Shown: positions 3,016 to 6,053 of the stretch, in pieces
How the letters are laid out: each line of letters opens with the position of its first letter
Position numbering within the stretch: the first letter of the stretch is position 1
Origin: a bacterium
GTDB lineage: Bacteria; Patescibacteriota; Doudnabacteria; UBA920
Assembly (NCBI GenBank): GCA_021789715.1
Contig: JAJYJE010000063.1
Span: 1 to 6,053, forward strand
Reading direction: 5' to 3'
Length of the DNA: 6,053 nucleotides
Notes under the pieces: generated by a model
Told to the model about the DNA's origin: nothing
What the model saw: only the letters and a program-made list of their open reading frames with translations
Databases searched by the model: none
Translations under genes and position numbers: made by a program

Positions 3016-3044
3016 TTGACTAAGTAGCCAATTTATGCTATAAT
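3016..3044 (+). promoter_or_regulatory. Strong sigma-70-type promoter with extended -10
   Basis: TTGACT (3016-3021), a 17-base spacer and a perfect TATAAT (3039-3044) preceded by TG (3036-3037) form an almost consensus promoter with an extended -10. Transcription should begin near 3051, giving a leader of about 78 bases before the start codon at 3129. The -35 begins 11 bases after the ABC stop codon, so the downstream gene has its own strong promoter. No terminator is visible between the ABC gene and this promoter. Confidence 0.85.
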
Positions 3045-3128: not shown

Positions 3129-4232
3129 ATGATAGCACAACCGGTTTCGCCTGAGCTTCAGGCAGAAGCTTTGCTCGACCAGACGTTGGCCGAGATCGCC
3201 AGTTTTTTCCCGATGACTCAAGCAGACTATGATATGCTGAGCTACGGCCAGCAAGTCTATGGTGTGCGGATGACGGAAGGAAAGGGCCGGCAACAGATTA
3301 CGGTCATAAAAGGTGCTTCGGGTAACCATTACATCGGATCTCATAGTGAGCAGGAAGAAATGGAAGCCCGCAGAGACCGTGATCTGCAATTTTTTGACTC
3401 ATGGTACGATGGATTGCAGCACCTTAGCACTAAAGGCAAACAACCTGAACGTGTTGCACAAGTCGTAACTCAACGGTGGCCAAAACGGGCAAAACGCAGT
3501 AAAAAACTCCGGGTGTTGTCGCCAAATTCCGTTGCCCGGCAGCAGTATATCCAGTTTAGTCCGGGTGCCTTGTTTATCGTCGAACTCAACGGCAAGCTAG
3601 TGAAGTTGCCGATTGAGGCGCTCTATCCCTGGGAGTACTATTCTAGGACGCTCCCGCCAGTTTTGGCGGAGCAAACCCTGGAATGGGATTTCCGAAAGGA
3701 AGTTGCCGAATGCATCCGCAGGATGATTCTGGGAGTCAGTGCGCTGTTTCCGATTACGGCTGAAGATCAGGCGCTGATCGATCTGGCCAATGCTCAAATC
3801 CGGATCAAATTTGTTGATCATTTTTGGCAATTGGCATCGGCATTTGTGACGGAGAGCGGGAAGTATCGAGTGGGCTTTCCACGCGACGATATGGAAGAGC
3901 AGCCGGTGGGTATCCAGCACGATACGAAGACCGGACGGGCTAACGCTGACGCAGAAGTTGGCGCAATCCGCAAGGCTCGCCGTCTTTATCCTGGGGATCC
4001 TATGAAGACTGTGGTTACGGTGCATCACGCGACCAAAAATCACACCCATGAGGACGGCGAACTCATTAGGATTGTCACTTCTTGTGCGTTATGCCGGAAG
4101 AGCTTGCTCCACTATAGCCCTAACGTCAAGAACATTATTCCCTTAAATGGCGAGGGGATTGGCAAAGTTCCGATGCGGGTTCTGTACCCGCTGCCAGACT
4201 TTCCGGTTCCGGGTCTGGCTGTGGCGGCATAA
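3129..4232 (+). CDS. Cytidine deaminase-like protein with two tandem domains, the first degenerate
   Basis: I do not recognise this 367-residue protein as a named family; the call rests on motifs. The C-terminal half (about 200-360) resembles the cytidine deaminase (CDA) fold: TESGKYRVG, then ADAEVGAIRKA (273-283), TSCALCRKSL (317-326), HYSPNVKNII and a KVPMRVLYPLPDF ending like the CDA ELLPxxF tail. D274, C319 and C322 would bind zinc and E276 would be the catalytic glutamate, although most CDAs have Cys or His in place of D274. The N-terminal half matches it in order: FFPMT/LFPIT (26-30, 206-210), SEQEEMEARR (73-82), VLSPNSVARQ (129-138), SPG/SPN, and LPIEALYPWEY. There the cysteines are N133 and A136, so zinc catalysis is unlikely. 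No signal peptide or membrane segment is seen, so it should be cytosolic. It has its own promoter and terminator, apart from both neighbouring gene groups. Free nucleoside, nucleotide or nucleic acid are all possible substrates. Confidence 0.6.
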   Translation: MIAQPVSPELQAEALLDQTLAEIASFFPMTQADYDMLSYGQQVYGVRMTEGKGRQQITVIKGASGNHYIGSHSEQEEMEARRDRDLQFFDSWYDGLQHLSTKGKQPERVAQVVTQRWPKRAKRSKKLRVLSPNSVARQQYIQFSPGALFIVELNGKLVKLPIEALYPWEYYSRTLPPVLAEQTLEWDFRKEVAECIRRMILGVSALFPITAEDQALIDLANAQIRIKFVDHFWQLASAFVTESGKYRVGFPRDDMEEQPVGIQHDTKTGRANADAEVGAIRKARRLYPGDPMKTVVTVHHATKNHTHEDGELIRIVTSCALCRKSLLHYSPNVKNIIPLNGEGIGKVPMRVLYPLPDFPVPGLAVAA

Positions 4233-4289: not shown

Positions 4290-4292
4290 GCG

Positions 4293-4339
4293 CCGCAGGC
4301 GCGCAACTCACTCATGAGTGCGCGACCTGCGGTTTTTTT
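4293..4339 (+). terminator. Strong intrinsic terminator of the deaminase-like gene
   Basis: The left arm has CCGCAGG (4293-4299), CGCGC (4300-4304) and ACTCA (4306-4310); the right arm has TGAGT (4315-4319), GCGCG (4320-4324) and CCTGCGG (4326-4332). The loop is CTCA and one A is mismatched on each side (4305 and 4325). These 17 pairs are followed directly by seven Ts (4333-4339), so termination works for plus-strand transcription. A competing GC hairpin, CGCGCC-GCA-GGCGCG (4289-4303), uses part of the left arm. Confidence 0.88.
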
Positions 4340-4352
4340 GTAAAAAACCGCA
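4328..4352. repeat. Inverted repeat overlapping the terminator T-run
   Basis: TGCGGTTTTTT (4328-4338) and AAAAAACCGCA (4342-4352) are perfect 11-base inverted copies around a three-base centre. The left copy is the right arm and T-run of the main terminator, so the structure can form in transcripts from either strand. On the minus strand it lies about 50 bases after the pseudouridine synthase stop codon. No T-run follows it there, so its value as a terminator for that operon is doubtful. Confidence 0.5.
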
Positions 4353-5095: not shown

Positions 5096-5704
5096 TTACT
5101 TTTCGCGGATTAATCTGTTAATGATTTTTTTCCACAGCGTCATTGTGAGTAAAATTAAGGCAAGCGCGATGAGCAATGAAAATTTGCCAATAAGGTTGTT
5201 AATATCCTCCCAGGCGCTGCCGAAGGCGTAGCCGATGCTGGCGAAAATTAATACCTGGACGATTTCTCCAGGCACCTCGTAGAGCAGGTAGCGGAGATAC
5301 GGCAATTGCCCGAGCCCGGTAATAAAATTTACGGACAAGGTTGCCAGTACCTCGAAGCGGCTGAAAAAAATTATCAGCGCCGGGCCGCGCTGGATGCGCC
5401 GCTCGATGGCCTTAAAGCCCGGGGAATCGAGAAGCTTACGAAAGCCGATGCGGCGCAGCACGGGCTGGCCAAAGCGCCGGGCCAGCCAAAAGCCGGCGCT
5501 ATCCCCCAAAATATTGCCGGCGCTGGCGGTCAGGATAACCAGGTCCATATTAAAATAGCCCTGGCTGGCGAACGCGGCCGAGGCCATTAAGGTGGCAGCG
5601 GAAGGAATAGGCAAGGCTATAGCCGCCAGCAGCGTTACCGTAAACAGCGTGGTGTATTTATAAACCAGTAAATAAGAAAGTATGGTTTGCAGTAAGAAAT
5701 CCAT
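5096..5704 (-). CDS. Divergent DedA-family (VTT domain) membrane protein
   Basis: The protein has 202 residues, the usual DedA length, and is an integral inner-membrane protein. DedA proteins are linked to lipid-carrier flipping (undecaprenyl phosphate in some members), membrane homeostasis and proton-motive force. Visible family features are an early hydrophobic hairpin with PIPS (32-35), GNILGDSAGFWLARRFG (63-79), FFSRF (113-117), a VPGE turn (144-147) and GYAFG (158-162), followed by a last helix and a basic tail. The family's usual PxPGE reads P-I-P-S-A, so the acidic residue is missing; Asp68 remains. The usual RFxPxxR reads R116-F-E-V-L-A-T122, so the first arginine is kept and the second lost. 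These changes may mark a separate subclade. ATG 5704 overlaps the preceding stop codon by one base and has GGAG nine bases upstream. Confidence 0.85.
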   Translation of the reverse strand: MDFLLQTILSYLLVYKYTTLFTVTLLAAIALPIPSAATLMASAAFASQGYFNMDLVILTASAGNILGDSAGFWLARRFGQPVLRRIGFRKLLDSPGFKAIERRIQRGPALIIFFSRFEVLATLSVNFITGLGQLPYLRYLLYEVPGEIVQVLIFASIGYAFGSAWEDINNLIGKFSLLIALALILLTMTLWKKIINRLIREK

Positions 5705-6053
5705 TACTTGCCGCTCCGGTATTGGTTAATGGCGTTTTGGATTTGCTGAATCAGGGTTTGGCTTCTTATGTATCGGCTGTGGGCGTAACGGATTATTGTG
5801 ATATTGGGATAACGGTGGTCAGTAATGCCCAAGCTGGCTTGAAGTAAGGTTTTGGGCAAGTGGAACAGGACATTTATGTAATCAAAGGTCATCCACGGTT
5901 GGATGTCATCTAAAGCGGCGGGCCGATGCTGCAAGGCGTCGCGCAGTTCTACGCGCTGCTCGCTGCGGTAAATATCCCGAATTCCTAAAAATGTCCACCA
6001 CAGCGCCAGAAGGCAGGCGAATGCAAGGACGGCAATAAAAAAATTGAGATCGG
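5704..6053 (-). CDS. Membrane-anchored protein of unknown function, 5'-truncated by window edge
   Basis: I cannot assign this gene to a family. The frame is open from the window's right edge to TAA at 5704-5706, giving 115 visible residues, and the start codon lies beyond the window. The first visible residues form one hydrophobic helix (LNFFIAVLAFACLLALWW). A mainly polar helical stretch follows, then a segment with the look of a conserved domain: DDIQPWMTFDYINVLF, HLPKTLL, a GITDHRYPNITIIRYAHS section and a glutamine-rich basic tail. The layout suggests a small bitopic protein with its soluble part on one face of the membrane. A TTG at 5934 could be read as a start, but that would cut away the helix, so it is rejected. 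It overlaps the DedA start by one base, which suggests a functional partnership with the DedA protein. Confidence 0.7.
   Translation of the reverse strand, partial: DLNFFIAVLAFACLLALWWTFLGIRDIYRSEQRVELRDALQHRPAALDDIQPWMTFDYINVLFHLPKTLLQASLGITDHRYPNITIIRYAHSRYIRSQTLIQQIQNAINQYRSGK
5714..5717 (-). promoter_or_regulatory. Ribosome binding site for the DedA-family gene
   Basis: GGAG on the minus strand lies nine bases before the ATG at 5704, inside the last codons of the upstream gene. Together with the TAATG stop-start overlap it supports this start and coupled translation of the two proteins. Confidence 0.6.

Follow-up and report, generated by a model that had tools for sequence, protein, structure and literature searches.

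What would a cytidine deaminase (CDA) gain from a second copy of its own fold that has lost the residues needed for catalysis? This question is raised by a gene in a 6,053-nucleotide contig of a Doudnabacteria genome (phylum Patescibacteriota; the whole contig is referred to here as the window), whose product consists of two CDA-like halves:

3129..4232, plus strand: two-domain cytidine-deaminase-like gene, 367 aa, open reading frame (ORF) confirmed
3210..3662, plus strand: N-terminal CDA-fold domain (residues 28-178) that no longer has its catalytic and zinc residues
3750..4214, plus strand: C-terminal CDA-fold domain, residues 208-362, predicted active from a profile match and the predicted model

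Our analyses suggest that the protein likely has a single active site, in its second domain, and that the zinc-less first domain likely completes this site from a neighbouring position. A sequence-only reading of the window had proposed two CDA folds with a zinc and glutamate motif in the second only, and this was borne out by hhalign, profile matching and the predicted model. When alignments of the N and C halves (8 sequences each) were compared with hhalign, the internal repeat was recovered far beyond chance (probability 97.5, E 6.7e-12, 157 columns). Taken separately, both halves matched one and the same NCBIfam CDA model, the N half at 1.2e-6 and the C half at 2.7e-13, which places the C-terminal half on its own within the deaminase superfamily. 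The segments that the earlier reading had paired across the repeat (FFPMT with LFPIT, SPNSVARQ with TSCALCRK, SPG with SPN, and LPIEALYPWEY with VPMRVLYPLPDF) agree with both hhalign and the joint alignment; its pairing of E74-x-E76 with D274-x-E276 does not, since the joint alignment sets D90-S91-W92 on D274-A275-E276 and E74 on D265.

A first structure model, built from 8 sequences, was weak in the C domain (block means of 33-63 over residues 221-350), and a second model, to which 37 single-domain CDAs were added, resolved this domain. The predicted models contain a CDA-fold core in which helices start at the positions of the xE and CxxC motifs. The nearest solved fold for both domains in a fold search of the models was blasticidin-S deaminase (1wn5, 2z3g, 3oj6); free-nucleoside CDAs and blasticidin-S deaminases topped the list, well above tRNA deaminases and others. 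No whole-chain match to E. coli Cdd stood among the entries listed. The two-domain proposal is favoured at the level of sequence, of fold and of helix placement.

The two-domain form is conserved. Searches among 5.8 billion proteins identified seven homologues (52-77% identity, 355-369 aa), all with two domains, and the dead domain comes first in all eight proteins. A profile-based protein search, in which the 7,998 candidates sharing most words were scored, returned the same eight, while a search with the C half yielded one fragment only (P0009), likewise D-A-E at the first motif. Across 379 genomes of the phylum the profile matched two, the own genome and one with a single-domain CDA (G301), and across 49 genomes of the class it matched the own genome and G391; the gene is single-copy in its own assembly. 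Pfam, PHROGs (best E 0.079) and PADLOC gave no usable match for the two-domain protein, and phage records gave none. Plasmid records gave 9 matches, none with 80% query coverage in one place; 5 of them bear the annotation cytidine deaminase, and 2 are hypothetical proteins. Pattern scans confirmed no relative, either in viral contigs (patterns A1, A3 and P0010) or in genome contigs (A1). Literature searches, whose coverage mostly excluded subscription papers, found, among the papers listed, none on a dead-first or tandem half-dead CDA of this kind.

The predicted active site of the C-terminal domain is marked by three segments:

3948..3956, plus strand: D274-A275-E276, predicted first zinc ligand (Asp in place of Cys/His) and catalytic Glu
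4083..4097, plus strand: C319-A-L-C322-R323, two predicted zinc cysteines and an invariant Arg
4188..4199, plus strand: P354-L-P-D357, in which the aromatic three residues past the proline (P+3) is Asp in 8/8

In the predicted model, helix 275-286 begins at D274-A-E276 and helix 320-329 at C319-x-x-C322-R323, the same helix starts at which known CDAs place these motifs (PMC9897663). All 45 of 45 aligned sequences keep E276, both cysteines and R323, as do all eight two-domain proteins. The single-domain rows were gathered by two patterns, one of which includes CxxCR, so the search itself favoured conservation of the cysteines and the Arg there; the D274 and E276 positions are in neither pattern, and one pattern also demands Pro before CxxC. 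All eight two-domain proteins carry D-A/S-E and S-C-x-x-C, with Asp at the first ligand position, which is Cys in 80/80 collected single-domain CDAs, and the residue before C319 is Ser318, where 79 of those 80 have Pro. In a second set, 29 loci (own excluded) from the 34 other genomes that PRK06848 matched in the phylum sample, this position was Cys in 24, His in 3, Tyr in 1 and Asp in 1; the 24 include two near-copies, L023 and L024. The Tyr and Asp cases, L015 (G014) with Y-A-E and L022 (G359) with D-A-E instead of C-A-E, are otherwise intact single-domain CDAs.

By analogy with known CDAs, we predict from these alignments that D274, C319 and C322 would hold zinc and that E276 would activate water; Asp is known to serve as a zinc ligand. 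All eight proteins share three histidines, H299, H300 and H307, in the long beta3-alpha3 loop, and a His from this loop could also take part in zinc binding. The spacer between E276 and C319 spans 39-44 residues in the eight proteins versus 28-38 in 78 of the 80 other CDAs. Since PMC9897663 reports that this loop influences CDA selectivity, an unusual substrate is plausible, and the loop with its histidines may set a different selectivity.

The corresponding segments of the N-terminal domain have diverged in a different way:

3396..3404, plus strand: D90-S91-W92, aligned on D274-A275-E276 by the joint alignment and the model, catalytic Glu replaced by Trp in 8/8
3525..3536, plus strand: N133-S134-V135-A136, aligned on C319..C322, with neither zinc cysteine kept
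3627..3638, plus strand: P167-W168-E169-Y170, retained P+3 aromatic at the Phe126 position of tetrameric CDAs

Both cysteines of the first copy were noted as missing by the earlier reading (N133 and A136), and the loss holds throughout the family, with N or D at the first position and A at the second in 8/8. The first residue of the D90-S91-W92 motif varies among D, S, N and C. Helix 91-101 of the predicted model begins like helix 275-286, in agreement with the joint alignment, whereas hhalign alone places the motif four residues off, at D94/L96 instead of D90/W92; under either alignment, copy 1 lacks the catalytic Glu. E74 falls on D265, which is the position of the ribose-side Glu44 of CDA_F14, a tetrameric CDA.

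A concrete reason for retaining the first copy is possibly offered by Y170. According to PMC9897663, each active site of a tetrameric CDA is assembled from three subunits. In the docked model of CDA_F14 the own chain supplies Asn42 and Glu44, subunit D supplies Ala46 and Tyr48, and subunit B supplies Phe126, the third residue past the conserved Pro123. The Phe126 column is aromatic in 77/80 single-domain CDAs (F33, W23, Y21). Across the eight two-domain proteins it is Tyr in every dead domain and Asp in every live domain, while positions matching the subunit-D residues vary among the closest relatives of the window protein. Chains could pair, live against dead twice over, into a dimer that mimics the CDA tetramer, so that Y170 of the dead domain would line the live-domain pocket in the role that Phe126 of another subunit has in tetrameric CDAs. 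The substrate would most likely be a free pyrimidine nucleoside (cytidine, deoxycytidine or a modified relative). We commit to a free-nucleoside deaminase because Q263 and D265 fall on ribose-binding positions and because the sequence matches and top fold matches are to free-nucleoside CDAs and blasticidin-S deaminase. A partial thymidylate synthase match in the own genome (positions 2-113 of a 266-position model, E 3.1e-39) could use deoxyuridine monophosphate (dUMP) downstream of deoxycytidine deamination. PRK06848 picks out nothing in this genome besides the two halves of this gene. Neither PF00383 nor TIGR01354 has a match in the assembly, but both models also miss this gene, and the assembly is 78% complete.

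Of these elements, the alignments firmly support the duplication, the loss of the Glu and both cysteines from copy 1, the retention of E276, C319, C322 and R323 in copy 2, an Asp at the first ligand position and the restriction of the P+3 aromatic to copy 1; catalysis, zinc binding and the trans role of Y170 are predictions. Several points weigh against a zinc-binding live domain completed by Y170. The published superfamily motif is H/C-x-E...PCxxC (PMC6686228), so zinc binding by D-x-E...SCxxC is not assured. The live domain has a Phe at P+4 (F358) in 7/8 proteins, which could take the trans role one residue on, and the F126A substitution in a tetrameric CDA raised the Michaelis constant only about twofold (PMC9897663). 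Moreover, since the eight homologues form one lineage, the aromatic division rests on at most two lineages. Finally, PF00591 (the thymidine/pyrimidine phosphorylase family) has no match in the own genome at its 78% completeness.

The protein is also set apart from the known CDA families by its profile scores. TIGR01354, the tetrameric CDA model with a cut-off of 113.65 bits, was not reached (P0001 and P0004, no match; P0008, 13.6 bits), only 3/8 C halves matched it at E <=1 (best 0.011), and the tetrameric-CDA motif of [HC]xE plus PCxxC is absent from all eight proteins. The family closest to both halves is PRK06848 (NF005314), single-domain CDAs from Bacillota, Patescibacteria and others that share the common CDA core and CxxCR, but which have one domain, Cys as first ligand and Pro before CxxC. 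Three proteins tested scored 74.1 (the window protein), 56.5 and 65.2 bits against the equivalog cut-off of 131, making the window protein a relative of PRK06848 and not a member. Blasticidin-S deaminase, the closest solved fold, has ~23% identity to the C domain, a single domain, a zinc site of three Cys and a specific antibiotic substrate.

Like the window protein, E. coli-type dimeric CDAs (1ctt, 6k63, 4eg2, 6l08) have two CDA domains, one of them dead, and dead-domain residues help to build the active site of the other monomer (PMC6686228). In contrast with the window protein, they have the live domain first, a His ligand, the P+3 Phe in the live domain and other profile families. E. coli Cdd and three other chains of this type keep the P+3 Phe in the live domain (LPDAF, LPDAF, LPESF, LPHRF), and their dead domains carry an Ala/aromatic segment, AENAAF in three chains and ESAAY in the fourth, that corresponds to the subunit-D residues. 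Most simply read, the E. coli-type and window designs would have been fused across different interfaces of the ancestral tetramer. As aligned, the window protein departs from the known two-domain enzyme in its domain order, in its predicted zinc ligand and in where it carries the shared aromatic. Known CDAs are either single-domain tetramers or dimers whose chains are live-dead tandems; a dead-first tandem with an Asp ligand and the aromatic in its dead half would, if true, mean that the dimeric design arose more than once, through a different interface.

Other explanations place the function of the two domains elsewhere. The whole protein could be a pseudoenzyme in which Asp274 abolishes the zinc site of copy 2 as well, leaving both domains as a nucleoside- or protein-binding scaffold. 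The uniform Cys of the 80 single-domain CDAs at the D274 position fits this idea, as does Ser318 in place of their Pro (79/80, though one search pattern requires that Pro); we nevertheless consider it unlikely, given that E276, C319, C322 and R323 have stayed invariant in all eight proteins despite divergence to 52-77% identity, that Asp can bind zinc, and that the intact single-domain L022 also has D-A-E. Deamination of a nucleoside-analogue antibiotic, as by blasticidin-S deaminase, instead of cytidine in salvage would accord with the best structural match, with the long, divergent beta3-alpha3 selectivity region and with the ABC exporter gene upstream. Fold similarity reveals no substrate, however; Q263 and D265 appear to retain the ribose-site chemistry, and separate transcription is suggested by the promoter-like site that divides the exporter gene from this one, so that we rate antibiotic deamination as rather improbable.

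A divergent E. coli-type dimeric CDA with swapped halves would explain a half-dead, two-domain protein of comparable size. However, TIGR01355 and PF08211 gave no match up to E 10, though control E. coli Cdd matches both; the first ligand is Asp rather than His; the P+3 aromatic is in the dead domain here and in the live domain of the four E. coli-type chains; and the closest family, PRK06848, is matched by E. coli Cdd only at E 0.19. A swapped origin seems very improbable. The earlier reading had likened the protein to APOBEC3G, which together with ADAT2/3 likewise combines catalytic and non-catalytic deaminase domains. These enzymes act on nucleic acids and belong to other branches of the deaminase fold. 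While the idea of paired catalytic and non-catalytic domains stands and the dead-then-live order is that of APOBEC3G, the comparison itself calls for correction: by sequence the protein matches free-nucleoside CDAs and blasticidin-S deaminases, which also top the fold list, and no APOBEC was among the 50 fold-search entries listed, although such a listing does not exclude APOBEC likeness. We regard a nucleic-acid editor of this type as hardly credible.

A relative with the opposite order makes a separate origin of the dimeric design directly testable by comparison. P0010 (365 aa, genome G391 of the same bacterial family) resembles the window protein in having two CDA domains, one of them dead, in adjoining rluB and in carrying the P+3 aromatic in the dead domain only, but its live domain (C-S-E, PCGLC) comes first, its motif-less dead domain second, and identity is low. 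It matches PRK06848 at 2e-20, and its Phe126 column holds Tyr in the dead domain and Lys in the live domain, with no aromatic in the next several residues. The C-half profile matched the first half of P0010 (31.6 bits, best domain) and the N-half profile did not; the second half scored 30.0 bits (best domain) with the N-half profile and 29.4 bits in all, in two pieces, with the C-half profile, a ranking that hhalign reverses (C half, 3.7e-9; N half, 2e-8).

Two trees bear on this relationship, the first including 30 of the 80 single-domain rows and the second adding 15 rows. The first tree groups the N and C domains with both G391 domains (87/96), the N domain with the G391 dead domain (91/64) and the C domain with the G391 live domain (23/0). 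Neither N + C without G391 (approximately unbiased test, p-AU 0.433) nor C + G391 dead domain (p-AU 0.427) was rejected. The second tree again joins N to the G391 dead domain (93/57) and places the G391 live domain outside, among other CDAs (fork 44/93), although a single clade of all 18 rows was not rejected (p-AU 0.465). The trees thus lean toward common descent of the dead domains, with long branches and alternatives that pass the test, and both a shared duplication followed by a swap and separate duplications remain compatible with them. A 'YP' ahead of the C-terminal aromatic was dropped as a shared derived trait, being present in other Patescibacteria CDAs.

Among 49 genomes of the class 37 have rluB, and of 30 loci examined, up to 1.5 kb on each side, such a gene is present at only two, in the own genome and in G391. 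The two genes have different ABC exporter paralogues (39%) as neighbours, which weakens the idea of an exact same site. More tentatively, Patescibacteria may have evolved a third CDA architecture: a half-dead tandem fused across the Phe126-lending interface with a one-Asp/two-Cys zinc site. Its live and dead domains would have exchanged places between relatives at a site next to rluB, with zinc and trans-aromatic still assigned to separate domains.

Two signals frame the gene in the window:

3016..3044, plus strand: sigma-70-like promoter, TTGACT-17-TATAAT with TG ahead of the second hexamer, 11/12 consensus matches
about 4292..4340, plus strand: intrinsic-terminator-like hairpin then T-run, -32 kcal/mol, z -4.3

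The promoter-like site is a consensus match only, shuffles of the region averaging 1.6 sites that score >=9, and the hairpin is absent from the six sites that a simple scan listed. Given a promoter-like site before it and a strong hairpin with T-run after it, the gene is probably its own transcription unit, between the upstream ABC exporter gene and a convergent rluB-type pseudouridine synthase gene. An ORF at 5704-6051 (minus strand) runs off the window end and has no Pfam match. Third-position GC content (GC3) is 0.56 in 3129..4232 versus 0.62-0.70 in the four neighbour genes measured, which might reflect a later arrival of the gene.

At rluB loci L036-L052, the genes downstream of rluB differ between genomes of the family, and one of two ABC exporter paralogues lies near several of them. 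Near rluB in another genome of the family, G295, a deaminase-like ORF (L046:3087-3479, minus strand; SHH...HSCMSCR) has no convincing Pfam or NCBIfam match, and the frame upstream of it ends at a stop. The CDAs at L029 (G245) and L032 (G365) have an N-terminal extension, a long beta3-alpha3 loop and Ala for Arg after CxxC. Actinobacterial proteins of 328-366 aa (L082, L092, L103, L117 and L118) carry a P-loop-like (GxxGxGK) N-terminal part in frame with a CDA domain.
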